A stretch of DNA of 64,000 bases, taken from positions 358,006 through 422,005 of the forward strand of contig CAJTGF010000001.1 in assembly GCA_910575585.1 (NCBI GenBank). The letters run 5' to 3'. Shown piece by piece: positions 27,843 through 53,209 of this stretch. A program made the position numbers and the translations under genes. Numbering within the stretch: position 1 is the stretch's first letter; each line of letters begins with the position of its first letter. The notes under the pieces were generated by a model. It was given only the letters and a program-made list of their open reading frames with translations, did not search any database and was not told where the DNA came from. The DNA comes from Clostridiaceae bacterium (GTDB lineage: Bacteria; Bacillota; Clostridia; Lachnospirales; Lachnospiraceae).

Positions 27843-27881
27843 AAAAAGTGTCGCTTAATAACTAGTTAAGCGACACTTTTT
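27843..27881. repeat. Left inverted-repeat recombination site (IRL)
   Basis: A 39-bp near-perfect palindrome. The core is arm GTCGCTTAA (27850-27858), 7-bp asymmetric spacer TAACTAG, arm TTAAGCGAC (27866-27874). It extends outward to AAAAAGT and ACTTTTT. The 25-bp core 27850-27874 recurs exactly, in inverse orientation, at 28059-28083. Inverted arms around a short asymmetric spacer are the classic layout of a tyrosine-recombinase crossover site. Read leftward, it also forms a strong stem followed by six T, an intrinsic terminator. Confidence 0.88.
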
Positions 27882-27924
27882 ATTTATACGATCCTAGAAA
27901 CATCATTTTTCTATAACGAGTCTG

Positions 27925-27953
27925 ATTATATCATCATTTTTCATAGGTGTCAA
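27925..27953 (-). promoter_or_regulatory. Perfect sigma-A promoter inside the invertible segment, facing left
   Basis: On the minus strand, TTGACA (27953-27948), a 17-bp spacer and TATAAT (27930-27925) preceded by TGA (extended -10). Nothing on the minus strand downstream of it is a gene; transcripts would run into the terminator-like IRL within about 50-80 bases. Confidence 0.88.
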
Positions 27954-28058
27954 CTGGGTGGAATTGTCATTTTGTCTGGAAAATTATAATTATTATCTGA
28001 AACTTTACGCATATATATAGATTTTACTGTCTTTTTTAATTGAAAAAAGATAAAAAAT

Positions 28059-28083
28059 GTCGCTTAACTAGTTATTAAGCGAC
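28059..28083. repeat. Right inverted-repeat recombination site (IRR)
   Basis: The exact reverse complement of 27850-27874: arms GTCGCTTAA and TTAAGCGAC around spacer CTAGTTA. The inner flank ATAAAAAAT resembles the inner flank of IRL; the outer flank (CAGTTTACAACTG) does not and has no T-run. It ends 26 bases before the first gene of the locus. Confidence 0.88.
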
Positions 28084-28109
28084 CAGTTTACAACTGATCT
28101 TTAAGGGAG

Positions 28110-28613
28110 ATGAGGAATATCTGGTATCTTCTGAAGTGTCCTGAGGGCAATGAGACAGATTTTATGGATAAATGTCTTAAAATCATAGATTCGGAAGAAA
28201 TGGAAGAGATGTTGTGTTTTCAGTATCAGCGTATGATACGTTACGGCGGAACGTGGCATCTGGAAAAACGGATCGCTCTGCCGGGGTGTATTTTTGTAGC
28301 TGCTGCTGATGTGCCAAGGAAAAGAAAGCAGCAGAGGAGTTCTAATAGAAATGATAAAGTCTTTGTGACTCCCTGTGAGTTTCCGTATCTGAAGGAGTTG
28401 TGTGACAGTGGCTCCCTTATTGAGCTATCCAAGGGAGTGATAAAGAACGGGACTACTGTTGTGACCAGCGGGCCGCTGAAAGGCCGGGAGTCTCTCATAC
28501 GGAAAATCGACCGACATAAAAGGACGGCGGAGATTGAGATTCCCTTTGGCAGCGGTAAAAAGCAGATAACGATAGGGCTGGAGATTTATGAGAAAGAGAT
28601 ATCTGGAGTGTAA
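28110..28613 (+). CDS. NusG-like transcription antiterminator (LoaP/UpxY type), first copy
   Basis: A 167-residue NusG paralogue. The N-terminal NGN domain shows MRNIWYLLKCPEG and LEKRIALPGCIFVAA (the LFPGYVF-like strand). A KOW region lies at GTTVVTSGPLKGRESLIRKI. Specialised NusG paralogues ride RNA polymerase across long operons for polysaccharides or antibiotics and suppress termination. This one is the first gene after the invertible promoter, so it would be produced only when the switch is ON. The start at 28110 has AAGGGAG very close upstream, an unusual spacing. Confidence 0.8.
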   Translation: MRNIWYLLKCPEGNETDFMDKCLKIIDSEEMEEMLCFQYQRMIRYGGTWHLEKRIALPGCIFVAAADVPRKRKQQRSSNRNDKVFVTPCEFPYLKELCDSGSLIELSKGVIKNGTTVVTSGPLKGRESLIRKIDRHKRTAEIEIPFGSGKKQITIGLEIYEKEISGV

Positions 28614-28844: not shown

Positions 28845-29363
28845 ATGTGGTATGTCATACAGACTCTTAGCGGGCAGGAAGAGAGAACTGCTGATATGAT
28901 CAGGAAGATGATCTCTCAGGATTGTATTAAGGAATGTTTTGTTCCGAAAAGGGAGAGACTGAAAAAGTTTCATGGAAGCTGGAATAAGGTAGAGGAAGTA
29001 TTGTTTCAGGGTTATGTATTTTTGATCTCGGAAAGACCGAAGGAATCGTATGAGAAATTGAAACAGGTCCCCAAATTAACAAAGGTGCTTGGGAGAGAGA
29101 CGGATTACTTTCTTGCATTGGGTGAACAAGAAAAGCGACTTGTTGAGGGTATTGGAGATCAGGAACATAAAACCACTTTATCCCAAATAGTGGCAGGGCA
29201 AGAAAAGAAAATACAGGTAGTTGATGGGCCTTTGAAAGGTTATGTGGGCAATATTGTAAAAACGGATCTCCATAAGAGGGAAGTGATGATAGCAGTGGAG
29301 TTTATGGGAAGAAAGATGGAGCTGAAAATGGGGATTGAGATGGTGGAAATGGGTGAGAAATAG
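28845..29363 (+). CDS. NusG-like transcription antiterminator (LoaP type), second copy
   Basis: A 172-residue NusG paralogue with the canonical start MWYVIQTLSGQEERTADMI. The NGN strand is EEVLFQGYVFLISE, and the C-terminal KOW domain includes IQVVDGPLKGYVGNIVKTDL. It fits LoaP better than the first copy. It leads the long co-directional polysaccharide operon (about 34 kb) and probably keeps polymerase from stopping within it. A GGAGGGCTG site precedes the ATG. Confidence 0.88.
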   Translation: MWYVIQTLSGQEERTADMIRKMISQDCIKECFVPKRERLKKFHGSWNKVEEVLFQGYVFLISERPKESYEKLKQVPKLTKVLGRETDYFLALGEQEKRLVEGIGDQEHKTTLSQIVAGQEKKIQVVDGPLKGYVGNIVKTDLHKREVMIAVEFMGRKMELKMGIEMVEMGEK

Positions 29364-29411
29364 AAAATTGATGGTTGAATATCACGAATGAAAAAGAGGA
29401 AGGAGATCAGC

Positions 29412-30083
29412 ATGAATTATTTAGTAGTCGTTGCCCACCCTGATGATGAAGTATTGGGGGCAGGGGCAACAATCCATAAACTGATCACAGAGGGGGAAAA
29501 AGTAGCTGTGGCAATCCTTGTTGGAAAGGCGGATGCCAGAGCAAATATCTCATCAACTTTATTAGACGATGAAGCGGAGGCCATGGGCATCATGGGCGTG
29601 GAAAAAGTATATCATGCTGATTTTCCGAATATCAGATTAAATACGGTGCCTCATCTCGATCTAGTCCAGTTCATCGAGTCCTGCATTATAGATTGGCAAG
29701 CTGAGGCGATCATCACACACCATCCAAGTGATGCAAATATTGACCATCACGAGACTGGAAAAGCCGTCAATGCCGCATGCCGTCTGTTCCAGAGAACAGA
29801 TGGCGTGCCGAAATTGGAGGAATTGCTCTACATGGAAGTTCCTTCTAGTACGGAATGGAGTTTGAATACCGCCGAAAACCGTTTTGTTCCTAATACATTT
29901 ATTGAGATCGGCGAAGACGGTGTAAAGGTAAAGATGAAGGCTTTGGCTGCTTACAAGGGTGTCATGAGACCGTTTCCCCATCCGAGATCGGAAAGGGCGA
30001 TAGAAGGCTTGGCAGCATATCGGGGAGTGCAGTCTGGTCGTGAATACGCAGAGGCTTTTGAGAGTGTGTTTCGATGTGGATAA
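29412..30083 (+). CDS. PIG-L family sugar deacetylase
   Basis: A 223-residue zinc-dependent de-N-acetylase of the PIG-L/LmbE family. VVVAHPDDEVLG (residues about 5-16) is the metal-binding signature; ITHHPSDANIDHHETG holds the second His motif. Family members remove N-acetyl from GlcNAc-type sugars or conjugates. The start at 29412 follows AAGGAG, whereas the frame opens at 29388. It is paired with the LpxD-like acyltransferase 9 bases downstream, suggesting deacetylation then re-acylation of an amino sugar. Confidence 0.88.
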   Translation: MNYLVVVAHPDDEVLGAGATIHKLITEGEKVAVAILVGKADARANISSTLLDDEAEAMGIMGVEKVYHADFPNIRLNTVPHLDLVQFIESCIIDWQAEAIITHHPSDANIDHHETGKAVNAACRLFQRTDGVPKLEELLYMEVPSSTEWSLNTAENRFVPNTFIEIGEDGVKVKMKALAAYKGVMRPFPHPRSERAIEGLAAYRGVQSGREYAEAFESVFRCG

Positions 30084-30092
30084 GGAGTTTTT

Positions 30093-30998
30093 ATGGATTA
30101 TTTTCGTGTCAATGTCAGTACATATGATAGTTCGAAGGAATTTGTGGTCACCCGCCCGGCTTCTATGAACAATCCAAAAGATCATTCTGTGATGTTTATC
30201 CAGAAAAAATATCTGAGCAATGCTAGTAAATTCGCAACGGTTTTTGGCTGTCTGATATTCTGGCCTGATGGTGTCGAAGTGCCAGTGGATATTTCTAGCA
30301 AACATGCTGTCTGTATTTGCAAAGATCCCCACATTGAGTTTTGCCGCTTCTTTAAGGAGCATGGCATCACAAATTACGTGCTGCCAGGAGAGATCGTTGA
30401 ACGAGATCATTATATAACATGTGGAAATGTTGAGATAGGTGAAGGGACAAAAGTATTTCCGTATGTGTATATCAATGGTAACGTGACAATAGGAAAGAAT
30501 TGTTATATTGGAGCGGGAACAAAAATTATCGGCAACGTGTATATAGGCGATGATGTGCTGATCAGGGAAAATGCAGTCATAGGGGCTGATGGCCTTACGA
30601 CAGATCGGGATGAAAACGGAGAGGCGGTCACAATGCCTCAATTTGGCGGTGTGATCATAGAGGATAATGTTCAGATCGGGGCTTCTGTGATCATAGAAAG
30701 AGGGGCTATTGACAATACGGTAATAAAATCCGGCTGCAAATTAGACAATGCTTGTTTTGTGGCGCACAATAACACGATCGGTAATAACGTATTTATGGTT
30801 GGTGAGAGCAGTACATTTGGAAGCGTCACGATCGGAGATAATACTTTGATCTCAGGAAACGCATCTATTCGGCAGGGATTGTCTGTGGGAAAAAATTGCA
30901 TTGTTGGAGTGGGCTCGATTGTCACAAGAAGCGTGAAGGATAAGACTACAGTTATGGGGAATCCGGCAAAAGCGATATTTTCCCCGGGGAGCAGGTAA
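30093..30998 (+). CDS. LpxD-like left-handed beta-helix acyltransferase
   Basis: A 301-residue protein with an N-terminal alpha/beta domain (residues 1-105) followed by hexapeptide repeats (VEIGEGTKVFPYVYINGNVT...) and a C-terminal VMGNPAKAIF loop. The two-domain layout and AHNNTIGNNVFMVGESS resemble UDP-3-O-acyl-glucosamine N-acyltransferase (LpxD). Gram-positive bacteria do not make lipid A, so it more likely N- or O-acylates a surface-glycan sugar. An ACP and acyl-activating genes follow, giving a plausible donor. The exact acyl group is unknown. Confidence 0.82.
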   Translation: MDYFRVNVSTYDSSKEFVVTRPASMNNPKDHSVMFIQKKYLSNASKFATVFGCLIFWPDGVEVPVDISSKHAVCICKDPHIEFCRFFKEHGITNYVLPGEIVERDHYITCGNVEIGEGTKVFPYVYINGNVTIGKNCYIGAGTKIIGNVYIGDDVLIRENAVIGADGLTTDRDENGEAVTMPQFGGVIIEDNVQIGASVIIERGAIDNTVIKSGCKLDNACFVAHNNTIGNNVFMVGESSTFGSVTIGDNTLISGNASIRQGLSVGKNCIVGVGSIVTRSVKDKTTVMGNPAKAIFSPGSR

Positions 30999-31003
30999 GG
31001 CAT

Positions 31004-31750
31004 ATGGGGCTTCTCAATAAAAAAATTTGTTTGATCACCGGCGCGGGAAAAGGGATAGGAAAGAAAACAGCAGAGCGGTTTGCGCAGGAAGGGGCTGTGG
31101 TCTATATTACAGACCGTTCAGAGAGAGAAATAAACGCTGCAGCGGAGAAAATAAGCAAAAATTATTGCGCAGAAGTCATCCCGCTGGTTTTTGACATAAC
31201 GGATGACCTTGAGGCCAAAAAGGCTATTCAAAGGATAAAAAAGGAAAGCGGTCGTCTTGATGTACTTGTAAACAATGCCGGAATTATGCGAGATAATGTG
31301 ATCGGCATGATAGGGAAGCAGTTGATGGCAGATGTGTTTGATGTCAATGTTTTTGCTGTTATCAATATGATCCAACTTGCCAATAAGCTGATGAGCCGCC
31401 AAAAATCTGGAAGTATCATCAACATATCAAGCATTGTAGGATTAGAGGGGGCGGCAGGACAACTTGTGTATGCTGCCTCGAAAGGAGCGGTAGCATCTTT
31501 AACGAAAGCAGCTTCCAAAGAACTTTCGCCCAATGGCATCAGAGTTAACGCGGTTGCTCCAGGTCTGATCAACACGGGATTATTGCAGGCTATTGGCGAC
31601 ACAAAAATTGTGGATAATCTTAAAAATGTCCGCATGGGAAGATTAGGCGAACCTATGGATGTTGCAAATGTGATCCTATTTTTAGCATCTGACCTTTCAG
31701 CATATGTTACTGGAGAAATAATAGGGATTGACGGAGAGGCTCAGGTATAA
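31004..31750 (+). CDS. SDR-family 3-oxoacyl-ACP reductase-like oxidoreductase
   Basis: A 248-residue classical short-chain dehydrogenase. TGAGKGIGK (residues 11-19) binds NAD(P), NNAGIMRDN is conserved, and Ser with YAASKGAVASLTKA gives the catalytic Tyr-x-x-x-Lys. It is very FabG-like. Located five bases after the acyltransferase and just before an ACP, it could reduce a keto or aldehyde group on an ACP-bound acyl intermediate. Housekeeping FabG is less likely given the context. Confidence 0.88.
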   Translation: MGLLNKKICLITGAGKGIGKKTAERFAQEGAVVYITDRSEREINAAAEKISKNYCAEVIPLVFDITDDLEAKKAIQRIKKESGRLDVLVNNAGIMRDNVIGMIGKQLMADVFDVNVFAVINMIQLANKLMSRQKSGSIINISSIVGLEGAAGQLVYAASKGAVASLTKAASKELSPNGIRVNAVAPGLINTGLLQAIGDTKIVDNLKNVRMGRLGEPMDVANVILFLASDLSAYVTGEIIGIDGEAQV

Positions 31751-31781
31751 GGATGGGGTAATATAAGAAAGGGAAAAGAAA

Positions 31782-32024
31782 ATGAATAATCTGGAAAAGT
31801 ATGACAAGGTATTTAAGGAGGTGCTTGAAGTTAGTGAGGATCAGTTGAAAGGACTTAAATATCAGGATATTGAAGCGTGGGATTCTGTAGGCCATATGGG
31901 TTTGATATCTGCCCTTGAAGATGCTTTTGATATCATGATGGATACGGATGACATCATTGATCTTAGTTCCTATGAAAAGGGCATGGAAATTCTTGCTAAA
32001 GACGATTACGGAGTTGAATTTTAA
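31782..32024 (+). CDS. Acyl carrier protein
   Basis: An 80-residue acidic helical carrier. The DSVGHM motif (residues about 35-40) holds the Ser that receives phosphopantetheine. It overlaps the start of the acyl-activating ligase by one base. This dedicated ACP probably carries the acyl group handled by the surrounding ligase, reductases, thioesterase and acyltransferase. Confidence 0.9.
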   Translation: MNNLEKYDKVFKEVLEVSEDQLKGLKYQDIEAWDSVGHMGLISALEDAFDIMMDTDDIIDLSSYEKGMEILAKDDYGVEF

Positions 32025-33442
32025 TGGGTAAAATATGGGATCTGGAAGTGCATAAGAGGAAAAAGGCCCTTATTGATGAGTTTGGCAATTGGATGACTTA
32101 CGATGTGCTGGATCATGAAGCATGCGTCCTCGCGCATAAGATTGGGCATCGCTGCCTGGTTTTCGCGCTGTGCAGAAATGAGATGGGGTCTGTTTTAGGA
32201 TATACTTCATTTATTAATAACGGGATCGTCCCGGTAATGGTTAATAGTCATCTTGACGAGGTGCTTTTGGAGAATTTACTCAAAACGTATTCTCCCCAGT
32301 TTCTGTGGGTCCCGAAAGATCAAAAGCAACAGTTTTCAGGAATGACGACAGAGCATGAGGCGTATGGATATGTTCTGCTGAAGACGGGATATGGGACAAC
32401 ATATCCTCTCTATGAGGAACTGGGTTTGCTCATCACCACATCCGGGTCCACAGGCTCTCCAAAACTTGTGCGTCAGTCTTATGCCAATGTCCTTGATAAT
32501 GCCAGATCCATAGCAGAGTATTTGAAGCTGGATGATAAGGAACGTCCGATCACAACTCTGCCAATGAATTACGTATATGGACTATCCATTATCAACTCTC
32601 ATTTCCTGGTTGGAGCAACTCTGCTTTTGACTGATAAGACATTGATGCAGAAGGAGTTCTGGAGTTTTTTTAAGGAAGCAGAAGCGTCTTCCTTTGGCGG
32701 CGTGCCTTATACCTATGAAATGCTGGACAAGCTTCGTTTTTACCGCATGAAGCTTCCAAGCCTGCGTACTATGACACAGGCCGGAGGGAAGATCACGCCG
32801 GATCTTCATGAGAAATTTGCGTCATACGCGGCAGAGCAGGGCAGAAATTTTGTGGTCATGTACGGCGCCGCTGAGGCGACAAGCCGCATGGGTTATCTGC
32901 CTCCGGAAAAGGCTGTTGAGAAAAAGGGGTCCATGGGCATCCCGATCCCCGGTGGAAAGTTTACGCTGATAGATGCTGACGGCCAGGAGATCACAGACCC
33001 TTTGACCACAGGTGAACTTGTTTATGAAGGCAAGAATGTGACATTGGGGTATGCAAAGCGCGGAGAAGATCTGATCAAAGGTGATGAACGCAATGGCAGG
33101 CTTGAGACCGGTGATATGGCTCAGTTTGACGCCGACGGATTCTACTATATTGTTGGCCGAAAGAAAAGGTTCTTGAAGATTTACGGTAACCGTGTAAATC
33201 TTGATGAGATCGATCGTCTTATCAAAGTAGAGTTTGGCATCGAGGTTGCCAGCACAGGTGTTGATGATCATATGTATATTTTTGTGACAGATGAGAAAGT
33301 GGCAGGGGCCGTGCGAGATTTTGTGATTAGTAAGACAAAGCTTAACCCAGTGTCATTTAAGGTGCTGGTTATTGACGAGATACCCAAAAACGATTCTGGC
33401 AAGACCCTATATAAGGAATTAACAAAATATTATGCAGAATAA
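32024..33442 (+). CDS. AMP-forming acyl-activating ligase (ANL superfamily)
   Basis: A 472-residue adenylate-forming enzyme. The P-loop LITTSGSTGSPK is at residues about 136-147. VMYGAAEATSRMGY, LETGDMAQFDADGF and the C-terminal catalytic Lys in KNDSGKTLYKEL complete the core motifs. It is predicted to adenylate a carboxylic acid and load it on the adjacent ACP or CoA. It overlaps genes on both sides, so the operon is tightly coupled. The substrate cannot be read; a short hydroxy acid is proposed from context. Confidence 0.88.
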   Translation: MGKIWDLEVHKRKKALIDEFGNWMTYDVLDHEACVLAHKIGHRCLVFALCRNEMGSVLGYTSFINNGIVPVMVNSHLDEVLLENLLKTYSPQFLWVPKDQKQQFSGMTTEHEAYGYVLLKTGYGTTYPLYEELGLLITTSGSTGSPKLVRQSYANVLDNARSIAEYLKLDDKERPITTLPMNYVYGLSIINSHFLVGATLLLTDKTLMQKEFWSFFKEAEASSFGGVPYTYEMLDKLRFYRMKLPSLRTMTQAGGKITPDLHEKFASYAAEQGRNFVVMYGAAEATSRMGYLPPEKAVEKKGSMGIPIPGGKFTLIDADGQEITDPLTTGELVYEGKNVTLGYAKRGEDLIKGDERNGRLETGDMAQFDADGFYYIVGRKKRFLKIYGNRVNLDEIDRLIKVEFGIEVASTGVDDHMYIFVTDEKVAGAVRDFVISKTKLNPVSFKVLVIDEIPKNDSGKTLYKELTKYYAE

Positions 33443-34136
33443 GGAATTGCAGCTGTTTATCCTTCCATATGCCGGCGGGAGCATTGCGGCATTTAAGAGA
33501 TTAACAGATCTGATTGATGAACGCATAGAAGTGATCACAGTCGAATATGCCGGAAGAGGGACCAGAGCAAAAGAGCCGCTGGCAGAGAGCGTCCAAAGCT
33601 TGCTGGATGATGCGATCGCTTATTGTCAAGAGCGGAGAAAACAAGGGCTTCCATATGCTGTAATGGGTTATAGCATGGGAAGCGTGCTGGCATATGAGAT
33701 GATCGCGCGTCAAGAAATCTTTGGCCAGCTTAGACATTTTTTCATTTCGGCTGAAGTATCGCCGAAAGACCGCTGGCTGGAATTGCGGAAAGTGGAAGAT
33801 CCCACGGAAGAAAGGATCCTTGAGAGAGCGAGACGGCTTGGCGGTTTGGAAGAGAGGATGTTGAAGAACAAGCGGTTTTTTGATATCTATATAAAGCCGA
33901 TGCTGTCAGATTATAGACTTTTTTTTGATTATCAGTTTAGCGACCGCTATGAGAAGCTCCATGTTAATACCACATTCTTCTATTGTCAGCAGGACACAGC
34001 TCTTGAGGATGTGAAAAAATGGGATGAGCTAATTGACGGAGAATTTGCTTTTTATGAGATGGGAAAAGACCATTTTTTTATCAATCAGCGTTATGAGGAA
34101 ATGGCAGGGATAATCAATAGGACCCTGGTACAATGA
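33432..34136 (+). CDS. Type II thioesterase (alpha/beta hydrolase)
   Basis: A 234-residue thioesterase of the kind found beside NRPS and PKS systems. The N-terminus LQLFILPYAGGSIAAFK contains the oxyanion region, GYSMGSV the nucleophile Ser and KDHFFI the catalytic His. It probably hydrolyses stalled or wrong acyl groups from the ACP. It overlaps the ligase stop by 11 bases. Confidence 0.88.
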   Translation: MQNKELQLFILPYAGGSIAAFKRLTDLIDERIEVITVEYAGRGTRAKEPLAESVQSLLDDAIAYCQERRKQGLPYAVMGYSMGSVLAYEMIARQEIFGQLRHFFISAEVSPKDRWLELRKVEDPTEERILERARRLGGLEERMLKNKRFFDIYIKPMLSDYRLFFDYQFSDRYEKLHVNTTFFYCQQDTALEDVKKWDELIDGEFAFYEMGKDHFFINQRYEEMAGIINRTLVQ

Positions 34137-34145
34137 GCAGAGGGA

Positions 34146-35240
34146 ATGGGCATGATATTTGATGAGATGTTGAACATTCCTCCGTATTCGCTGGATGCGG
34201 AGGAAAAAGGAAGGTTACTTACAAAACGGCTGGTGGAGTTGACAAAGCTTCATCGGGAACATTGTTATGAATACAAGAACATGCTGGATGCAATTGGATT
34301 TGATGTGGATAAAGCGCAGTCTTATAAGGATCTGCCATTCCTTCCCGTCCGCCTTTTTAAGGAGATGGATCTAAGATCTGTCCCACAGGATGATGTAGTA
34401 AAGACCATGACATCTTCCGGAACAACAGGACAGTCTGTCAGTAAGATCTATCTTGACAGGACGACTTCTTCCAATCAGCAGAAGACGATGGTGAAGATTG
34501 TTTCTGGATTCACCGGCTCCAGCCGCATGCCGATGATCATCATTGACTGTCCCAGTGTGGTCAAGAACAGAGTAATGTTTTCCGCTCGTGGGGCCGGGAT
34601 CCTGGGATTCTCTATTTTTGGCAGTAAGAAGATATATGCATTGGATGATGACATGAAGCTGGATGCTGAGGGCATGAAAATGTTCCTGGAGAAGTTTAAA
34701 GGGCAAAAGATCCTGCTGTTTGGATTTACGTTCATGATCTGGCAGCATTTCTACAAAGAACTTCTCAGATTAAAGGAAAAAGGCATCACGTTTGATCTTT
34801 CCAATGGGATCCTTATCCATGGGGGAGGTTGGAAGAAACTGATATCAGAGGCAGTGAGTCATGATGAATTTCATAAGAAAATGGAAGATGTCTGCGGCCT
34901 GCATGATATTCATGACTACTATGGCATGGTGGAACAGACAGGCTGCATCTATATGGAGTGCGAATTTGGACATCTCCATGCAAGCAATTTCTCAGATGTG
35001 ATCATCCGCCGTCCCCTGGACTTTTCTGAAGCCGATATTGGTGAGACCGGTATCATCCAGGTTGTGAGCGCGATCCCGGAATCGTATCCCGGGCACAGCT
35101 TGCTGACGGAGGATGAGGGTTCTATCCTGGGTGTTGATGACTGTCCATGCGGGCGCAAGGGAAAGTATTTTAAGATCAATGGACGTTTGAAGAACGCAGA
35201 GATAAGGGGGTGCAGCGATACCTATGCAGCTAAGTTTTAA
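34146..35240 (+). CDS. LuxE-like acyl-protein synthetase
   Basis: A 364-residue protein of the LuxE family (PF04443), an ANL relative that activates a fatty or other acid with ATP and hands the acyl group to the reductase LuxC. VVKTMTSSGTTGQSVSKIY carries the phosphate-binding loop. HDYYGMVEQTGCIYMEC and the zinc-like GVDDCPCGRKGKYFKINGR end are family features. It overlaps the luxC-like gene by 17 bases. No luciferase genes are present, so the role is aldehyde production rather than light. Confidence 0.85.
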   Translation: MGMIFDEMLNIPPYSLDAEEKGRLLTKRLVELTKLHREHCYEYKNMLDAIGFDVDKAQSYKDLPFLPVRLFKEMDLRSVPQDDVVKTMTSSGTTGQSVSKIYLDRTTSSNQQKTMVKIVSGFTGSSRMPMIIIDCPSVVKNRVMFSARGAGILGFSIFGSKKIYALDDDMKLDAEGMKMFLEKFKGQKILLFGFTFMIWQHFYKELLRLKEKGITFDLSNGILIHGGGWKKLISEAVSHDEFHKKMEDVCGLHDIHDYYGMVEQTGCIYMECEFGHLHASNFSDVIIRRPLDFSEADIGETGIIQVVSAIPESYPGHSLLTEDEGSILGVDDCPCGRKGKYFKINGRLKNAEIRGCSDTYAAKF

Positions 35241-36411
35241 AGGATTACAGTATGTGGTTGGCACTCCCGAAATTGTGGAGAACATGCAAAATGTCAGACG
35301 GCTGCGTCCCTTTGATTGTGATGTTATTTCGTTCCTGAACGATCTGTCGTCTGAATTGCGAAAGAACAGAGGATATCCTGATGTTGCGACCTTTGGGTTT
35401 TGGTGCAGAAAAGCGGCGCTGTTACAGGAAAAGGAAAAGTATGATGATGTGAGTGAACGGTTTGGAAAAGGCATCGTTTTCCACAGCACACCTTCCAATG
35501 TGCCTGTGAACTTCGCGTTCAGCTTTGCGGCGGGACTTCTTGCCGGCAATGCAAATATTGTGCGTTTGCCTGGCAAACCTTTTGAACAAGTAGGCATCAT
35601 TAGCGATGCCATCAGCCGACTGCTTGGTCATAATCATAAAAATATGGCTCCCTATATCGCTTTTGTGAAATTTCCTCCCATGAAGGAGATCTCGGATGCA
35701 TTTTCTGCTCTTTGTAATGTGCGCGTTATTTGGGGCGGCGATATGACGGTGGATGAACTGCGTCAGTCTAAGATACCTGCAAGAACTACAGAGATCACAT
35801 TTGCTGACCGCCATTCCATCGCAGTCATTGATGCAGATGCTTATCTTGCAGAGGAACGGAAAGATGCAGTGATCCAAAACTTCTATAATGATACTTATTA
35901 TTCCGATCAAAATGCCTGTACTTCACCTCGCATTATCTTTTGGAAAGGGGACAAGACAGCAGAGGCAAAATCGGATTTTTGGAAGCGCGTTCATGGGTTG
36001 GTTATAGAGAAATATAGTCTTGCGCCTGTTCAGTCTGTTGGCAAATTGAACGCAATGTATTCAGTTGCCTCACAGAAGAAGGTCAAGCTTGAGAACAGTC
36101 AGGATATGCTCATCACAAGGCTTGCTGTCAACGAGATCCAAAAGGATTTGATGGACTATAAATACAACAGCGGTTTTTACTTTGAGAAGGATATCGACAG
36201 TCTGGATGATATTGTTAATGTCTGTGATATCCGCTGCCAGACAGTAACGTATTTCGGAGTAAAGGAAGAGGAATTTAGAAAGTTCCTGGAAGAGAGCAGA
36301 CCTATTGGGATCGACAGGATCGTGCCAATGGGCAAGTCCATGGACTTTGCTCTGATCTGGGATGGTTATGACCTCATCCGGCAGATGTCCAGAAAAGTTA
36401 CTATTATTTAA
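35224..36411 (+). CDS. LuxC-like acyl-CoA/acyl-protein reductase
   Basis: A 395-residue aldehyde-forming reductase of the LuxC family (PF05893). Conserved PSNVPVNFAFSFAAGLLAGN lies near residue 86. The catalytic Cys is predicted in YYSDQNACTSPR near residue 232. It would reduce the acyl group received from the LuxE-like partner to an aldehyde using NAD(P)H. In a polysaccharide locus the aldehyde is presumably an intermediate of a sugar substituent. Confidence 0.87.
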   Translation: MQLSFKGLQYVVGTPEIVENMQNVRRLRPFDCDVISFLNDLSSELRKNRGYPDVATFGFWCRKAALLQEKEKYDDVSERFGKGIVFHSTPSNVPVNFAFSFAAGLLAGNANIVRLPGKPFEQVGIISDAISRLLGHNHKNMAPYIAFVKFPPMKEISDAFSALCNVRVIWGGDMTVDELRQSKIPARTTEITFADRHSIAVIDADAYLAEERKDAVIQNFYNDTYYSDQNACTSPRIIFWKGDKTAEAKSDFWKRVHGLVIEKYSLAPVQSVGKLNAMYSVASQKKVKLENSQDMLITRLAVNEIQKDLMDYKYNSGFYFEKDIDSLDDIVNVCDIRCQTVTYFGVKEEEFRKFLEESRPIGIDRIVPMGKSMDFALIWDGYDLIRQMSRKVTII

Positions 36412-36421
36412 GAGAGTTCGT

Positions 36422-37447
36422 ATGGGAATGAGACAGGGGTATACCCAAAGGGTACACCTTAATACAAACTCCTTCGGAGTGGGGGCACTTCGTGCTATAA
36501 GGTATACACTTGGAAACAGAAAAGTTGCAATTGTCGGCGCCGGATATGTGGGCTCGTCCATTGCCTATGCTTTGGCATTAAAGGACGCCGCCAGAGAAAT
36601 TGTGATGATTGATATCAATCATGAGAAGACAGATGGTGAGGCAAAGGATATCAGGCACGGACTTCCGGGCATCGGGACTGCTGATTTGTATGCCGGGGAC
36701 TATAGTGATTGTGAAGATTGCGATCTGATCATCATCACAGCCGGACGCGGCAGGAAACCAGGGGAGACCAGACTTGATCTTGCAAATGAAAATGTGAGGA
36801 TCATGAAGTCGGTCATCGAGAGCATTCAAAAGTATTATAGCAGAGGGGTTCTGCTGATTATTTCAAACCCTGTGGATGTGCTGACTTTCAAAGCGGCTCA
36901 ATGGATGGGTTTGCCTGATGGAATGGTCTTTGGTTCCGGATGTATTCTGGATTCTTCACGTTTTGTAAGGTGCGTGGCAGATTATGTCGGACTTAGCACA
37001 GGCGTTATTAATGGATATGTTGTTGGAGAACACGGAGACGGTCAGGTCCCGGTTTGGAGCCATGTTACGGTAGGAGGCATCCCGGTCGGGGAATACTGTA
37101 AGGATGCAGGGATTGATTGGAATGATCAGATAAAGGCGGAGATTGCTGAAAATACAAAGGTCATGGGGGCGCGGATCATTTCCGCAAAGGGCCGTACACA
37201 TTATGGAATAGCCACCTGTGTCTGCCAACTTGCTGATGCCATTATAAACATGCGTCCGACCATAGCAAGTGTGAGTTCTGTCTTGATGGGTGAACATGGG
37301 TGCAGAAATACCGCATTGTCGGTACCCTCCGTTGTGGGACCATCGGGTGTTCAGCAAAGAATTCGAGAAAAGTGGGATCCGGACGAGTATAGAAGGTTCT
37401 TTGCTGCAGTAGAGAATGTAAGAGAAATACTAAACAGAATTGATTAG
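36422..37447 (+). CDS. LDH-family 2-hydroxyacid dehydrogenase with malate-type specificity residue
   Basis: A 341-residue member of the lactate/malate dehydrogenase superfamily, LDH-like subgroup. VAIVGAGYVGSSIA binds NAD; TAGRGRKPGETRLDL is the substrate loop; DSSRF and GEHGDGQVPVWS carry the catalytic Arg and His. In LDH the loop reads ANQKPGETR; here the specificity Gln102 is Arg, the residue that makes the fold accept oxaloacetate/malate. The start at 36422 follows luxC by 10 bases. Residues about 4-28 are encoded by a palindromic insert and are not typical of the family. Confidence 0.85.
   Translation: MGMRQGYTQRVHLNTNSFGVGALRAIRYTLGNRKVAIVGAGYVGSSIAYALALKDAAREIVMIDINHEKTDGEAKDIRHGLPGIGTADLYAGDYSDCEDCDLIIITAGRGRKPGETRLDLANENVRIMKSVIESIQKYYSRGVLLIISNPVDVLTFKAAQWMGLPDGMVFGSGCILDSSRFVRCVADYVGLSTGVINGYVVGEHGDGQVPVWSHVTVGGIPVGEYCKDAGIDWNDQIKAEIAENTKVMGARIISAKGRTHYGIATCVCQLADAIINMRPTIASVSSVLMGEHGCRNTALSVPSVVGPSGVQQRIREKWDPDEYRRFFAAVENVREILNRID
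36452..36507. repeat. Palindromic mini-element inside the 5' end of the LDH-family gene
   Basis: Outer arms GTACACCTTA (36452-36461) and TAAGGTATAC (36498-36507), one mismatch, enclose two tight hairpins with TTC loops: ACTCCTTCGGAGT (36468-36480) and GCACTTCGTGC (36485-36495). The whole folds into a cloverleaf-like arm in DNA or RNA. It is in frame with the gene. It resembles a small inserted palindromic repeat or MITE. Confidence 0.7.
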
Positions 37448-37460
37448 CGGAGAGAATGAT

Positions 37461-38117
37461 ATGGCATATGTTAGCACTCATCAATTTACGGCACGGCAAA
37501 AACGATATCTGCGAATAAAACGATTTCTGGATTTACTGTTAGCAATAATCCTGCTTGTTCCGGCATCCATTATCATGCTTTTTTTTATCATATGGATCAG
37601 ATTAGAGTCCAAAGGCGCGGCCATATTCAGACAGCGCAGACCGGGATACCATCAGAAAATTTTTACAATGTATAAGCTGCGTTCTATGAGAGTTGAAACA
37701 CGGGATAAAAATGGACGGGCATTGACAGATCAGGAACGCATGACCGTATCTGGAAGAGTCGCCAGGAAAACAAGTATAGATGAGCTGCCGCAGCTGATCA
37801 ATATCATCAAAGGAGAAATGAGTTTTATAGGTCCGCGTCCATTCTTGATCAATGATCTGGGAACCTACAGCAAAGAACAATTGATACGTTTTGATGTACT
37901 GCCGGGGATGTCTTCATGGACATCAATCCACGGCAGGGCGAATCAAAGCATTGAGAGCAAATACAATCATGAGATTTATTATGTAAATAACATTAGTTTA
38001 AAATTGGATATGGAAATATTCATAAAAACTGTTGCGTTGGTATTTAGTCAGAAGGATGTGGAAGATCATGTAACAGAGGGAAGGATCGCAGCAGAGATTA
38101 TTGAGGACAAAAAATGA
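37461..38117 (+). CDS. Initiating sugar-phosphate transferase (bacterial sugar transferase family)
   Basis: A 218-residue membrane-associated polyprenyl-phosphate glycosyl-1-phosphate transferase (PF02397). One N-terminal hydrophobic segment (LDLLLAIILLVPASIIMLFF) is followed by the cytosolic catalytic part: FRQRRPGYHQKIFTMYKLRSM, then KTSIDELPQLINIIKGEMSF and IGPRP. It starts the repeat unit by placing the first sugar on undecaprenyl phosphate. The start at 37461 is preferred over in-frame 37440. It overlaps the epimerase gene by 4 bases. Confidence 0.92.
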   Translation: MAYVSTHQFTARQKRYLRIKRFLDLLLAIILLVPASIIMLFFIIWIRLESKGAAIFRQRRPGYHQKIFTMYKLRSMRVETRDKNGRALTDQERMTVSGRVARKTSIDELPQLINIIKGEMSFIGPRPFLINDLGTYSKEQLIRFDVLPGMSSWTSIHGRANQSIESKYNHEIYYVNNISLKLDMEIFIKTVALVFSQKDVEDHVTEGRIAAEIIEDKK

Positions 38118-39010
38118 AGCGGATTCTTATTACAGGAAAAGGCAGCTACATAGGCACTAAAGTAGAAGAATGGCTGGGAAAGTATCCAGATGACTATAAA
38201 GTGGAAGTATTGGATATGATTGGAGATGGATGGAAAGAGTTGGATCTTCACGGATATGATGTCGTTTATCATGTTGCGGGGATCGCGCATAGAAAGGATG
38301 CAACTGATGATCTGTATGAACAAGTTAATCATGTTCTGGCAGTTGATGTAGCTGAAAAAGCTGCTGATTCCGGAGTGAAGCAGTTTGTGTTCATGAGCAG
38401 TGGAGCGGTATATTCACAGAGCGACAGGAAACATGGCTCCATAGTAGTTGACAGAGATAGTCCATTTTTACCGGAAACTCCATATGGATATAGTAAATTA
38501 AGAGCGGAAGAAGACATTAAGAGGATAAAAAGAAGTATGAAAGTAGCCATACTACGTCCGCCTACGGTATACGGGCCCGGTGCAAAGGGGAATTATAATC
38601 GTTTAGCAAGGATATCAAAGACATCTCCAATATTTCCGGATATCAACAATAAAAGATCCATGATTTATATCGATAATTTGTGTGAGTTTGTTAGATTGAT
38701 AATTGATAAGGAATGTGAAGGAGAATTCTTGCCGCAAAATAGGGATTATGTAAAAACGTCAGATATGGTTCGGATAATAGCGAGGGCCAATGGTCATAAA
38801 ATATGGATCACGCCAATATTGAATAGGTGGATTCAGCTTTTGGCAAAATATTTTGATTCAATCAATAAAGCCGTTGGCACATATTACTATGAAAGAGAAT
38901 GTTATTTTGAAGATAAATATATAATAGTTGATTTTGAGAAGTCAATAATCATGACAGAAGATATAGTGAAGAGATGTCTCTGTTTTGCAGATACGAAGGT
39001 GAATACATGA
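38114..39010 (+). CDS. NAD-dependent epimerase/reductase (extended SDR)
   Basis: A 298-residue extended-SDR sugar-nucleotide enzyme. The N-terminus ILITGKGSYIGTKVEEWL has a degenerate GxxGxxG, and PYGYSKLRAEED holds the Tyr-x-x-x-Lys pair. VYHVAGIAHRKD is typical of the WbpV/WbpK group, which act with WbpL-like initiating transferases to make 6-deoxy-N-acetyl sugars such as QuiNAc or FucNAc precursors. The adjacency to the initiating transferase fits. The exact product is not determined. Confidence 0.8.
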   Translation: MKRILITGKGSYIGTKVEEWLGKYPDDYKVEVLDMIGDGWKELDLHGYDVVYHVAGIAHRKDATDDLYEQVNHVLAVDVAEKAADSGVKQFVFMSSGAVYSQSDRKHGSIVVDRDSPFLPETPYGYSKLRAEEDIKRIKRSMKVAILRPPTVYGPGAKGNYNRLARISKTSPIFPDINNKRSMIYIDNLCEFVRLIIDKECEGEFLPQNRDYVKTSDMVRIIARANGHKIWITPILNRWIQLLAKYFDSINKAVGTYYYERECYFEDKYIIVDFEKSIIMTEDIVKRCLCFADTKVNT

Positions 39011-40248
39011 AAATTCTTTTATATACATTAATTTTTCCTCCAGATACATGTTCTAATGCTTTTATTTTTTCTGATATGACAACTGAATTTTTGAAATCAG
39101 GAGATGAAGTAACTGTTATAACCACAACACCGCACTATGATGAGGAACGTGCTGAAGGAAAAAAGAAATATTTAGAGAAGGGGAAAAGCAAGTGGTATCG
39201 TAAAAGCAATTATATGGGAGCATTTGTATATCATATTGATGTGGTTCCTCGAAAAGGAAATATTAAGGACCGGCTGGATACTTTTTATAGATTTCATCAT
39301 TACTGTACGAAGCTGCTTACGATTGAGAAAATAGAAGCAGATGTTGTTATTTGTCAAACTCCACCGATGACCATAGGAATTGATTGTCATAGGATAGCAA
39401 AACGGCTGCATGCCAGTTCGGTAATGATTCTTCAAGATCTGTGGCTGGATGCTATGATAGATGCTGGAAGAATAAAAGGTATCATGGCATACCTGCTTCG
39501 ACAAATTGAAATATATGAATATAAGAAAATGGATTTACTTACAACTATAGATGAAGCAATGGGGAAAAGGATAAAAGATATTTCTGGTATTCAACCTTTT
39601 GTGATTCCAAATTTCGTTGATTGTTCGATATATAGTCCACGAGTGCCAAATGCGGATGACTATGATAAATACAATATAGATAGAGAGAACTTTGTAATCA
39701 GCTATGTTGGCAATATTGGTGAAGCACAGGACTTGGAGCCGCTGATCCAGTATGCAAAGCATAATAAGAAGGCACGGATCATAATAGCTGGAAATGGTTC
39801 AAGAGAAGGATATTACAAAAAAAGAGTCAGGGACGAGGATCTGGATTCCGTTTCATTCATAGGGTATATATCAAGAGATGAGGCGAGGATCGTAAATAGT
39901 GTTAGTGATGTATGCATGATCATGTTGGCAAAACATGTTGCAGCGACCAGCTTTCCGTCAAAAATATATTCTTTAATGGCCATGGGAAAACCGATCGTGA
40001 TTTCATGCGCGGAAAATAATGAAGCAGGGCAATTTGTGGAACAACATGAAATAGGATGGAGATGTGATGTCGGCAATTATGAAAGGATCAATGCTTTGCT
40101 CGATCTTGTAGGAGCAAATGAAAAGCAGAGAAGGATCCGGGGGGAAAATGGAAGAAGCCTTGTTCTGAGAGAATATTCACCAGGTAAGATCGTGAAGAGG
40201 TATAAAGATATCATAAGCGAAATGCGAGATCACCCCTGTATCAAATAG
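39007..40248 (+). CDS. GT4 family glycosyltransferase, WbuB-like
   Basis: A 413-residue GT-B glycosyltransferase. The N-terminus MKILLYTLIFPPDTCSNAFI, the domain linker FVISYVGNIGEAQDLEPLI and the C-terminal donor loop TSFPSKIYSLMAMGKPIVIS match the WbuB group. WbuB homologues are thought to transfer N-acetyl-L-fucosamine, and this locus has the UDP-L-FucNAc genes (59.8-63.3 kb). It overlaps the epimerase stop (ATGA). Confidence 0.85.
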   Translation: MKILLYTLIFPPDTCSNAFIFSDMTTEFLKSGDEVTVITTTPHYDEERAEGKKKYLEKGKSKWYRKSNYMGAFVYHIDVVPRKGNIKDRLDTFYRFHHYCTKLLTIEKIEADVVICQTPPMTIGIDCHRIAKRLHASSVMILQDLWLDAMIDAGRIKGIMAYLLRQIEIYEYKKMDLLTTIDEAMGKRIKDISGIQPFVIPNFVDCSIYSPRVPNADDYDKYNIDRENFVISYVGNIGEAQDLEPLIQYAKHNKKARIIIAGNGSREGYYKKRVRDEDLDSVSFIGYISRDEARIVNSVSDVCMIMLAKHVAATSFPSKIYSLMAMGKPIVISCAENNEAGQFVEQHEIGWRCDVGNYERINALLDLVGANEKQRRIRGENGRSLVLREYSPGKIVKRYKDIISEMRDHPCIK

Positions 40249-40281
40249 GAAAGGTTACGATATTAATCTGAAGGAGCGAAG

Positions 40282-41454
40282 ATGATGAGTTATCCGGTTA
40301 TTAAAAGTAGATCAAATAGACCGTATCAGATTTGCAACTGCTGTGTGATGGACACAACTGATGAGGACATAATATTTGACTTAAATGGTGTCTGTATGCG
40401 TTGTAATGAGTATAAGGAGCGGATTGAACCTACGTGGAATCACGGAAAAGGACATGAGAAGGAGCTGGAACAGCTTACCACTGCTATCAAAAAGTCTGGT
40501 GAAGGTAAGGAATATGATTGTATCCTCGGCCTTTCTGGGGGATTGGATTCATCATATATGCTTCACTTGGCTGTGAAAGAGTGGGGATTGAGGCCATATG
40601 TATATCATATAGACGCCGGATGGAATCTATTAGTTGCAGAAGAAAATATCCAAAAAATCACCGACAAATTAGGTGTGGAGCTTCATATTGAAAAACTCGA
40701 CTGGGAAGAAATGAGAGAAATGCAGCTGGCATGGTTTCGTACTGGTCTTGAGTCTCTGGATGTCCCGCAGGATCATGCTTTTATAGCTGTGATCGATAAA
40801 TTGGCTGGGAAATTGGGTATCAAGTATATATTGAACGGCTATAACATTGCAACTGAAGTATATGCGGATCCAGCTTCATGGGGCAAAGGAGGTGGACCCA
40901 CAGGAGATGGTACATACCTAAAAGATGTCATAAAGAAGTATAGTACAAAGCCTATAAAAAAATATAGTTTTACCAATGGATTTAAACATAAATTTGTTGT
41001 GCCATTTATCCATGGGGTAAAAACCGTAACTCCACTTAACTATGTTTCTTTTACTAAAAAAGATATGATAGATACATTGAGCAGAGAGTATGGATATGTT
41101 CCATATGGCCAAAAACATTTTGAGGATCTAATCACAAAGTTTTTGGAAGGGTACTGGGTACCCACGCGATTTGGTCATGATATCAGACGGGCATGGTTGA
41201 GTTCACTGGTCATTACAGGGCAGATGAGTAGAAATGATGCTCTTAAGATCCTTGAGCAGCCGCCATTATCTGAAGACGAGAGTAAAGAACTCTTTACTGA
41301 AGTTGCTAGTAAACTTGGTATTTCAGAGAAGGAGTTGAAGGAGTTCCATGAGATGCCAGAGTGTACAGAAAAGTTCAGGAGCCAGGAAAAGATCTATACT
41401 TTTGGGATAAGATTGTATGAGAAGGTTGGCTTGGAGATGAGGATAAGGAAGTAA
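40282..41454 (+). CDS. N-acetyl sugar amidotransferase (WbpG/PseA-like)
   Basis: A 390-residue PP-loop ATPase. The N-terminus has zinc-binding cysteines (QICNCCVMDTTDEDI, GVCMRCNEY). The ATP pyrophosphatase loop is ILGLSGGLDSSYML near residue 82. Homologues WbpG, PseA and WbuX convert an N-acetyl group to an acetamidino group on sugars such as ManNAc3NAcA, pseudaminic or legionaminic acid. With a nonulosonate pathway downstream, an acetimidoyl nonulosonate is the simplest proposal. HisH/HisF-type ammonia-supply partners are not seen. Confidence 0.87.
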   Translation: MMSYPVIKSRSNRPYQICNCCVMDTTDEDIIFDLNGVCMRCNEYKERIEPTWNHGKGHEKELEQLTTAIKKSGEGKEYDCILGLSGGLDSSYMLHLAVKEWGLRPYVYHIDAGWNLLVAEENIQKITDKLGVELHIEKLDWEEMREMQLAWFRTGLESLDVPQDHAFIAVIDKLAGKLGIKYILNGYNIATEVYADPASWGKGGGPTGDGTYLKDVIKKYSTKPIKKYSFTNGFKHKFVVPFIHGVKTVTPLNYVSFTKKDMIDTLSREYGYVPYGQKHFEDLITKFLEGYWVPTRFGHDIRRAWLSSLVITGQMSRNDALKILEQPPLSEDESKELFTEVASKLGISEKELKEFHEMPECTEKFRSQEKIYTFGIRLYEKVGLEMRIRK

Positions 41455-41562
41455 AAAATATTCTGTATCAATGATATGGTGGTGAATGAAGAGGGAACCA
41501 AGTTTGTTTTCTGGATGTGAAATAGGGGGGACTTATTAATTACAGGGAGAGGATGGGATTTT

Positions 41563-42012
41563 ATGAAGCAGAAATTTACAGGGCTTAAGGAGCTGATTTT
41601 GGAAAGAGGAAGAAATTATGTGTTGATTGACAGGGTGTACAATCAAACTCTCTTGAGGACTCTTTATTCCATGGGGGATATATTTACTATATGCAGTTCA
41701 TGGGAGAATTTTCCCACTACTTGTATCGAGGCTCAGTGCTGCGGAGTACCAGTCAGTGGGTTTGATCGATGTGGAACAAAGGAAACGGTAATTACGGAAT
41801 ATGGGAAGAGGAAAAATGCAGAAAAATTATCTGAGGATAATCAGATGGAGACATTTGTGGAATATGGAGATATAGAGGCACTTACAGAAGTAACGAAGAA
41901 ACTTCTAGAGAATGGGAATGAAAAAACGCAATTATCCAATATAGCAAAGAAATGTTATTCAAAGGAACAGATGAGTAATGCTTATTTGAATCTGTATCAG
42001 GAGATAATGTAA
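41563..42012 (+). pseudogene. C-terminal half of a GT4 glycosyltransferase
   Basis: A 149-codon frame corresponding only to the donor-binding half of a GT-B enzyme: LRTLYSMGDIFTICSSWENF, then PTTCIEAQCCGVPVSGF and KETVITEYG. The acceptor-binding N-terminal half is missing. It lies in AT-rich DNA next to the N-terminal half of a related enzyme. It is unlikely to be functional by itself. Confidence 0.75.
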
Positions 42013-42023
42013 AGGAAGTAGTT

Positions 42024-43042
42024 ATGAAAATATTACTGATTGATGTAAACTGCAAATACAGCAGTACGGGAAAGATTGTTTATGATTTGTATACGAATCT
42101 GCGAAAAGAAGGACACAAGGCAGCCATCTGTTACGGTCGTGGAAAATCAATAAAGGAACCAGGAATTTATAAATTTGGTCTGGATTGGGAAACGTATTTG
42201 CATGCGGCACTTTCAAGAGTAACAGGATACAATGGATGTTTTTCAAGGTTTTCTACGAAGCGTTTGATCAGATATATTGATCATTTTAATCCTGATATTA
42301 TCCATATCCACGAACTGCATGCTTATTTTGTAGATATAGTGCCGCTGATTAGTTATATTAAAAAGAAAAAGATTCAGGTGGTGTGGACCTTTCACTGTGA
42401 ATATATGTATACAGGGAAATGCGGGCATGCCTATGACTGTGAAAAATGGAAAACGGAGTGTGGAAATTGTCCGTATCTACGCGATTACCCCAAAGCATTG
42501 TTTGCCGACCGTACAAAAGAAATGTTTCGGTGGAAGAAGAAACTTCTTTCAGATTTGGATATGACCATTGTATGCCCATCAGAGTGGCTTGCTGAACGAG
42601 TGAGGCAGTCTTTTCTAAAGGATAAACGGATTGTCGTGATTCATAATGGAATAGATACCAGTATTTTTCATCCAGTTGAAGCAGATTCTTTGAGGGAAGA
42701 ACTTGGAATACCAGAGGGGAATAAGGTGGTATTGTCAGTTGCACCGGATATTATGAGTGAACGTAAGGGTGGGAAATGGGTCCTTAAACTTGCGGAACGA
42801 ATGGAAGATGAGAAGGTTACGTTTGTTCTGGTCGGGGGGGTAACAAGAAGAAAAGGAATGTCATAGAGATGGGAAGAATTTATGATAGACAGAGACTGGC
42901 ACAATACTACGCAATGGCAGATGTATTTATAATGTGCAGCCAACGGGAAGTATTTCCTACTACTTGCATCGAGGCACAATGTTGTGGAACGATCGTTGCC
43001 GGATTCGATGTGGGAGGTGCGAAAGAGACGAAGGTAGGATAA
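42024..43042 (+). pseudogene. GT4 glycosyltransferase split at a poly-G tract and 3' truncated
   Basis: The N-terminal 280 codons (MKILLIDVNCKYSSTGKIVY...) encode a GT-B enzyme with HIHELHAYFVDIV, WTFHCEYMYTGKCGH and CPSEWLAERVRQS. At a run of seven G (42834-42840) the frame leaves the family and stops. With one more G it would continue as NVIEMGRIYDRQRLAQYYAM and FPTTCIEAQCCGTIVAGF to TAA 43040-43042. Even then about 60 C-terminal residues would be lacking. The G-run makes slippage-based on/off variation possible, although decay is the simpler reading. Confidence 0.78.
42834..42840 (+). repeat. G7 homopolymer at the glycosyltransferase frameshift
   Basis: Seven consecutive G after GTC. Eight G would restore the open frame. 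Homopolymer runs of this type are slippage-prone and also error-prone in sequencing. Confidence 0.85.
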
Positions 43043-43111
43043 GAGGGTTAAGAGAGTTAAGAGAGATTATGCTAAAGTGATGGCAGGTGAGGATTTAATT
43101 TGGAGGAATAA

Positions 43112-44377: not shown

Positions 44378-44392
44378 AGGTGGATAATTAAT

Positions 44393-45815: not shown

Positions 45816-45894
45816 AGAATGGAAGTTTCAATGATAAGATTTAGGCGTATAGAAACATAAGTGCAGAGGAGAAAGTGAGAATAAAACTTCGATA

Positions 45895-47292: not shown

Positions 47293-47326
47293 GGTTTTCT
47301 TAATGTACTTAAACGGAGGAATATGT

Positions 47327-49828: not shown

Positions 49829-49842
49829 CGGAGAATCATGTA

Positions 49843-53199: not shown

Positions 53200-53209
53200 G
53201 GGGGGAATT

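Follow-up and report, generated by a model that had tools for sequence, protein, structure and literature searches.

In Bacteroides fragilis, capsule loci are headed by UpxY, an antiterminator that is a paralog of NusG, and the invertase FinA/Mpi is a serine recombinase. RecV, of Clostridioides difficile, is a tyrosine recombinase. The site of a tyrosine recombinase consists of arms around a 6-8 bp strand-exchange region, which is identical in both partners. The available excerpts of the literature on RecV describe switches in which recombinase-driven inversion of regulatory DNA affects flagella, toxins, and c-di-GMP enzymes. For B. fragilis, the accessible part of the published record reports invertible regions at seven loci, driven by the invertase finA, with repeats that are likened to hin in the title of a cited reference (PMC3090145), and UpxY genes have been found near invertons (PMC11892184, available part). 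The same part of that survey describes an inverton group 139 and an invertase group 35, mostly from Clostridia and with a tyrosine-type recombinase; one member of group 139 spans 257 bp with 26-bp repeats, and nearly all group 139 invertons lie near a group 35 invertase, near meaning within 5 kb (PMC11892184). Antitermination by LoaP is established in Bacillus velezensis, and a leader hairpin of the UNCG type has been described for it (PMC12691694, available part). Our literature search, which left most subscription literature outside, found no title or abstract on the switch described below.

The window, that is, the whole 64-kb stretch of DNA analyzed here, is the end of a 422-kb contig in a genome of 6.1 Mb. 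A sequence-only reading had proposed that it carries an invertible promoter, in the OFF orientation, ahead of a polysaccharide locus. This proposal gained support from sister switches in both orientations and from the polysaccharide genes downstream, and the 234-bp segment 27850-28083 is very probably an invertible promoter switch in the OFF state, flipped at its 25-bp sites by a tyrosine recombinase encoded elsewhere and controlling an operon headed by LoaP. The features of the locus are the following.

27843..27881, no strand: predicted distal (gene-far) recombination site, core 27850-27874, GTCGCTTAA TAACTAG TTAAGCGAC
27875..28058, no strand: interior of the predicted invertible segment, 184 bp, without an ORF of 80 aa or more
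27925..27953, minus strand: promoter TTGACA-17-TATAAT with a TG-extended -10, pointing away from the operon (OFF)
28059..28083, no strand: predicted proximal (gene-near) recombination site, GTCGCTTAA CTAGTTA TTAAGCGAC, gene side without a T-run
28084..28109, plus strand: leader between the proximal site and the first gene, with Shine-Dalgarno AAGGGAG
28110..28613, plus strand: first gene, divergent LoaP/NusG-like, IWYLLKCP class, 167 aa (NF033641 1e-28, 100.6 bits, cut-off 125)
28845..29363, plus strand: second LoaP-family antiterminator gene, 172 aa (PF02357; NF033641 153.4 bits, above the cut-off of 125)
29388..63303, plus strand: polysaccharide biosynthesis operon, by Pfam-type domain matches
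37440, plus strand: initiating sugar transferase gene, within the polysaccharide operon
45895, plus strand: Wzx-like flippase gene, within the polysaccharide operon
53210-56105, plus strand: genes for NeuB, a NeuC-like epimerase, and a CMP-transferase (cytidylyltransferase), within the polysaccharide operon

The 25-bp copies are exact inverse complements of each other, and the inverted match around them reaches 34 nt at 97% (27850-27883 / 28050-28083). Each copy is in itself a palindrome, GTCGCTTAA-N7-TTAAGCGAC, in which arms of 9 bp surround an asymmetric spacer of 7 bp (TAACTAG or CTAGTTA). When searched with up to three mismatches, this pattern was found at two places in the 64-kb window, both of them the sites listed above, against 0.01 expected, and a chance palindrome was rejected on this count. 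The stretch 27760-28109 is not touched by any ORF of at least 80 aa. The promoter matches the sigma-70 consensus at 12 of 12 positions (27953-27925), with the TG of an extended -10; a 12/12 match is expected 0.03 times per window, and a second copy of the pattern lies at 3167. Flipping the segment in silico moves the promoter to the plus strand, at 27980-28008, and its predicted start to about 28015, some 95 nt 5' of the ATG at 28110. The sequence-only reading had described two exact inverted copies with this arm and spacer design, a gene-free segment, a perfect promoter facing outward on the minus strand, and a flipped promoter about 100 bases before the first gene; each of these was reproduced, the coordinates and the exactness of the repeats included.

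Several other accounts of the sites were considered and rejected. There was no Rfam match at gathering scores in the window, which speaks against a known structured RNA, and no tRNA in it, as a tRNA-linked element would have; a phage origin was rejected on zero exact matches among viral contigs. Antisense pairing of both hairpins was rejected as well, the loops of the distal minus-strand and proximal plus-strand transcripts in the OFF state being identical, not complementary. Upstream, an 82-aa ORF at 27511-27759 ends about 90 bp before the distal site and shows a partial DUF4062 match just below the cut-off; it looks like a gene remnant.

The two sites differ in their surroundings. The distal core sits within a longer hairpin, with 16-bp arms and A/T runs on either side, that is predicted to be a bidirectional terminator. 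Over 35 switches, the mean predicted hairpin energy was -21.7 kcal/mol for an OFF transcript through the distal site and -13.5 kcal/mol for an ON transcript crossing the proximal site, and the next 10 nt contained 5.8 and 3.5 T on average (paired tests, 5e-7 for energy and 5e-6 for T count, n=35). The values for the window are -19.7 kcal/mol and 6 T (distal) versus -11.0 kcal/mol and 3 T (proximal). The distance from the -10 to the facing site has a median of 50 bp (28-62). Since a simple terminator scan of the window flagged the proximal copy on the minus strand and left the distal copy at 27850 unflagged, termination at the distal site is a prediction.

The main genes from 28110 to the contig end are all on the plus strand. 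The polysaccharide operon headed by LoaP spans at least 35 kb and reaches the contig end at 64000, and its sugar genes bear out the 35-kb polysaccharide locus of the sequence-only reading. In addition to the genes listed above, it encodes a PIG-L deacetylase, acetyltransferases, glycosyltransferases, and nucleotide-sugar epimerases; among the operon ORFs tested against Pfam, those at 43112 and 47303 had no match. Judged by this gene content, the window locus is a surface polysaccharide locus, and its product is probably a nonulosonic-acid-containing glycan, because NeuB, the epimerase, and the cytidylyltransferase occur together. Genes for an AMP-binding enzyme, a thioesterase, LuxE, LuxC, a thiolase, and a 3-hydroxyacyl-CoA dehydrogenase lie inside the operon, at 32024-36411 and 51170-53199. 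An acyl or aldehyde modification of the window glycan is possible.

The product of the ORF at 28110 did not match the Pfam NusG family. With the NCBIfam LoaP model NF033641 (cut-off 125), the window gene at 28845 and the second gene of the C11 locus (149.0) score above the cut-off; the first gene of the window and six other first genes (102.3-122.5) score below it. The UpxY model NF033644 stayed below its own cut-off wherever it was reported for the nine LoaP-like genes tested (best 58.5 vs 100), and in each of the nine the LoaP score exceeds the UpxY score. First genes of the IWY class (28110, L076, L091, and others) have ATC or ATT where the MWY class has ATG. This codon is at the usual distance from the Shine-Dalgarno, and an upstream ATG mostly overlaps the Shine-Dalgarno; L076 and L091 have no in-frame ATG, GTG, or TTG after the last stop. 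Initiation at AUC is possible in LoaP-like genes of the IWY class.

The sequence-only reading missed that the window switch is one of about eight in the genome, which have their arms in common and their spacers mostly not, and that a candidate recombinase acting in trans tracks the sites. A search of the source genome (G000) for the arm pattern, with the spacer left free and up to three mismatches allowed, gave 21 matches; the reversed control pattern gave none. Fourteen of these matches form seven intact inverted pairs, and two are copies with the spacer CTGATTG on contigs C131 and C28, an eighth switch divided between two contigs. The remaining ones are a perfect orphan on C3, a degenerate copy on C86, and three weak matches with three mismatches and no partner. 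Copies within the intact pairs are 209-222 bp apart. All seven pairs enclose a 12/12 promoter in the OFF direction beside a LoaP/NusG-like gene, so that the OFF orientation claimed earlier for the window promoter is shared by every intact switch. Sugar genes were found downstream in all five other loci tested with Pfam (C1, C9, C11, C19, and C43); the C10 locus stops at a contig end, and at C28 the Pfam test covered the first gene and the integrase. Across the eight pairs there are seven different spacers, TAATCTG being common to C10 and C11.

The divided CTGATTG switch has its copies at G000:C28:29194 (L019) and G000:C131:5391 (L018). Some 300 bp from the C28 copy there is an integrase of the Tn916 type (417 aa), and the C131 side continues into other ORFs, as if an integrative element had been inserted inside the invertible segment. 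This integrase was rejected as the invertase; it has Tn916 integrase domains and looks like part of an inserted element. Elsewhere in the genome, three large serine recombinase genes of the Resolvase family stand in a row on each of contigs C8, C9, C22, C108, and C128.

Sites with at most one mismatch were present in five of the 61 genomes searched, namely the source and four congeners. Among named genomes, 45 stretches had them, in a search that required one perfect copy per stretch and favored neither end. The named carriers include Hungatella MAGs, [Clostridium] symbiosum ATCC 14940, Clostridium transplantifaecale, and Bacterium 1XD21-70. Lone sites from unrelated taxa (Moraxella, Tamlana, Bizionia, Paraburkholderia, and Shewanella) account for five of these 45 and form no pairs, and G066 has a single unpaired site. 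There are 43 distinct pairs of sites 100-500 bp apart (filtered for at most one spacer mismatch), with 26 distinct spacers among them. If the spacer filter is dropped and distances up to 2 kb are allowed, 44 pairs are obtained, and the spacers are exact inverse complements in all 44; in comparisons across pairs, spacers match in 26 of 1,892 (1.4%). The matched 7-bp spacers therefore agree with the rule for tyrosine-recombinase sites, an identical strand-exchange region. Arms were perfect at 34 of 35 distal sites and at 4 of 35 proximal sites, and spacer identity despite this drift of the arms fits the need of a tyrosine recombinase; a mere terminator needs none. Spacers are not addresses strictly reserved for one locus each, and some common to several loci were also seen in G010 and G064.

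Two pairs have other contents. At L221 5389-6927 (G064:C17), a GTCGCTTAA pair 1.5 kb apart with the spacer ATGCCCC encloses a 290-aa ORF, not a promoter-only segment. The pair L222 3971-4176 (G064:C55; also L070) has the spacer CTAGTTA, as in the window, without a strong promoter and without a LoaP-like gene; it is possibly a decayed switch.

Orientation could be scored for 35 of the 43 pairs, the gene side being unscorable in the other eight, which were excluded from the count. Of these, 32 are OFF and three are ON (L058, L102, and L113). The interiors of two OFF switches align directly in 488 of 496 comparisons, and the interior of an ON switch aligns inverted to that of an OFF switch in 91 of 96. 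One locus was found in both states, ON in C. transplantifaecale (L102/L233) and OFF in [C.] symbiosum (L083/L234). Its far side is collinear in the two species (86% over 1,603 nt, 79% over 1,572 nt); this match ends 1.9 kb and 1.1 kb before the switch is reached, and the sequence in between is dissimilar. Its gene side is collinear from the proximal site (76% over 706 nt, with further blocks beyond). Between the two, 142 nt match at 85% in inverted orientation, the proximal site and its inner flank in one species corresponding to the distal ones in the other; the spacers differ (CTGACTA and CTGGTTA). The ON switch L113 has the inner half-arm TTAAGCGAT and the flank GGTTTTTGACAG (GAT|GGTTTTTGACAG) at its distal site. 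In its nearest OFF match, the paralogous switch L056, the same half-arm piece is at the proximal site, and the outer half-arms have not moved. The GAT half-arm is at the proximal site as well in L052 and L060, the other two scored OFF switches of the L113 genome. As the inner half-arm moves and the outer half-arms stay between L113 and L056, the exchange falls between the arms. Both orientations of the invertible promoter are found at the level of the family (3 ON and 32 OFF of 35), and inverted repeats flank a promoter at the window locus. When orientations were compared across related genomes, the idea of inversion survived through the inverted sister switches, and no inverted copy of the window locus itself was seen among the loci compared.

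The candidate for the flipping enzyme is a tyrosine recombinase of 328 aa (PF00589) encoded at G000:C100:3033-4019, between a glycosyltransferase gene and a Wzz-like chain-length gene (weak Wzz match, 1e-4). Recombinases of this C100 type (at least 56% identity) were found in five of five site-positive genomes and in one of 56 site-negative genomes (G005) among the 61. Fisher's test for this co-occurrence gave 1e-6, and 9e-5 within the genus, both too optimistic given shared ancestry. G005, which is 73% complete, has no site at up to three mismatches. Six further, more distant genomes with sites were reached via the named loci (G067 is the same as G011 and was counted once), and five of them have a C100-type recombinase; no recombinase match was found in G066, the genome with the single site. 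Apart from paralogs of the C31 type and a second, broken copy in G065, other recombinase matches at E 1e-30 are at most 38% identical. The C100 protein is full length, and the catalytic motifs are conserved in 15 of 15 recombinases.

A control recombinase of the source genome was found in 29 of 32 genomes, site-positive and site-negative alike. By its identity to the source copy, the five distant positives stand at 64-68% and many negatives at 63-69%, and the nearer genomes G006 (77%) and G003 (75%) have neither sites nor the enzyme. The co-occurrence is not fully independent because the site-positive genomes are partly close kin, and it was examined, among integrases and resolvases, for the C100 family and this one control recombinase only. 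A Wzz neighbor is present at eight of 15 recombinase loci, four of the seven others being covered by 1.5 kb of flank only, and in G064 a recombinase is about 3 kb from a switch. The protein search for relatives at E 1e-60 covered the best 120 of 194, and a search against solved structures gave distant matches only, to Xer and Int proteins; the interpretation was unaffected by both. The C100 recombinase is likely the shared flipping enzyme; because a paralog on contig C31 of the source genome is 67% identical to it, this identity stays inferred. In a tree built without outgroups, the C31 branch (support 94/91) contains G000, G010, and G011 only, and each of these three genomes has the C100 type too. 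The C31 paralog (L141 3878-5153) is flanked by a 22-bp inverted repeat (95%) with copies about 1.2 kb apart, and no repeat of this type was among the five longest at the corresponding genes of G010 and G011.

Other genomes of the genus have recombinases 30-38% identical to the C100 type. A scan for palindromes with matched spacers detected sites at eight of 21 such sister recombinase loci (33-38% identity in these eight) and at none of seven control integrase loci; a scan of the surroundings of the sister recombinases for inverted repeats with exact arms of 14 nt had given nothing useful. At the eight loci, inverted sites 1.25-1.5 kb apart enclose the recombinase gene, the called ORF overlapping the edge of a site in L170 and L176. 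Five of the eight have arms of the type GTCGTAGAG-N7-CTCTACGAC with small changes at most, and L170, L172, and L186 have variants; L172 comes from another family of the order. The sister sites have the same 25-bp layout, mostly with outer GTCG/CGAC, and a matched 7-bp spacer. Some other GTCGTAGAG-type pairs are just 350-550 bp apart, and a LoaP-like gene adjoins the sister unit in L180 and L181. Arms of the GTCGTAGAG type (at most one mismatch) occur in 14 of the 61 genomes, none of which has GTCGCTTAA arms. Compared with the window switch, the sister units thus have a homologous recombinase and the same layout, but different arms and the recombinase inside the segment.

Three other explanations were weighed. 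It is unlikely that the switches are real and the flipping enzyme is not the C100 recombinase, the C31 paralog, another integrase or resolvase, or several enzymes doing this work. The source genome offers candidates, with its 67% paralogs and with 47 Phage_integrase and 59 Resolvase matches in total; G010, G011, and G064 have two such genes each, and G005 has a C100-type gene and no sites. Against this, G022, G024, G061, G062, and G063 have sites and a single family match each (E 1e-30), and in the tree the C31 branch is not found apart from the C100 type. Another view denies inversion and takes the palindromes for bidirectional terminators only, the outward promoter yielding a terminated RNA of about 75 nt as its product. 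We consider this very improbable, since terminators have no need of hairpin-loop spacers that agree exactly, as inverse complements, within all 44 pairs and for the most part vary from locus to locus, and since three switches stand in the inverted orientation, including the one whose locus is collinear on either flank. Its merits are a distal hairpin that is terminator-like in most scored loci, the conservation of the promoter, the start region, and the distance to the facing site (median 50 bp), and the common orientation of all intact copies in the source genome.

That same uniformity, seven of seven intact switches OFF in the source genome and 32 of 35 across genomes, could also mean that inversion was formerly active in the family and that the window locus or strain is now locked OFF. 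There is little to be said for the probability of this, as the arms of both window copies are perfect, their spacers match, and the recombinase has its full length and its catalytic motifs. A population that is mostly OFF would also give a majority-OFF assembly, and the available part of the B. fragilis work reports the LC promoter OFF in all three genomes compared (PMC3090145).

Under the preferred reading, an invertible promoter flipped by a recombinase acting in trans, the C100 recombinase would recognize the common 9-bp arms GTCGCTTAA/TTAAGCGAC, and the 7-bp spacer would be the strand-exchange region that must match between partners. Because most loci have their own spacer, each locus would flip mostly alone, and one shared enzyme is predicted to switch the window cluster and several similar ones largely independently. 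In the OFF state, the transcript from the promoter would run about 70 nt into the distal site, the predicted terminator. In the ON state, it would cross the proximal site, with its weaker hairpin and no T-run, and reach the LoaP-like gene about 95 nt on; LoaP would then help the polymerase along the long operon. With confidence slightly above even, we favor a wider proposal, that Clostridia independently built a multi-capsule switchboard like that of Bacteroides. It would combine a trans-acting tyrosine recombinase, a common 9-bp arm, and a 7-bp spacer serving as an address that mostly confines flips to their own locus. Its sites would act as one-sided terminators, the gene-far copy keeping its strength and the gene-near copy having decayed; the OFF state would thereby be tight, and transcription in the ON state would continue into LoaP. 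Recombinase subfamilies would have their own arm code (GTCGCTTAA or GTCGTAGAG) in the same 25-bp layout.

A hallmark of Bacteroides is capsule switching at many loci through one shared invertase. If our reading is true, the same plan exists in Clostridia (Hungatella-like genomes, [Clostridium] symbiosum, and relatives) with another recombinase class, a convergent route to surface variation; many surface states per strain are then predicted, and deletion of one enzyme should freeze every locus. The variation of the spacers is a natural data set on how one recombinase serves many loci with no scrambling of the chromosome, and the two arm families are another on recombinase specificity.

Among the described systems, RecV-controlled loci, in the excerpts available, are not polysaccharide operons headed by LoaP, and the likeness is by description only. 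Inverton group 139 was likewise compared by description; in the available part of that survey its members lie close to their invertase, whereas the enzyme of the window family is mostly on another contig or distant (PMC11892184). The words symbiosum, hathewayi, Hungatella, NusG, and LoaP do not occur in its main text, and it is possible that some of the present switches were catalogued before within group 139 (PMC11892184). The window family resembles B. fragilis, as far as the accessible accounts describe it, in having several polysaccharide loci, each with an invertible promoter and a NusG-paralog first gene, and one invertase. It is unlike B. fragilis in that its candidate enzyme is a tyrosine recombinase, in a genome with its 59 Resolvase matches, and not a serine recombinase like FinA/Mpi; in its 9-7-9 bp sites, which are terminator-like and have a spacer varying by locus; and in an antiterminator that scores as LoaP-like, not as UpxY.
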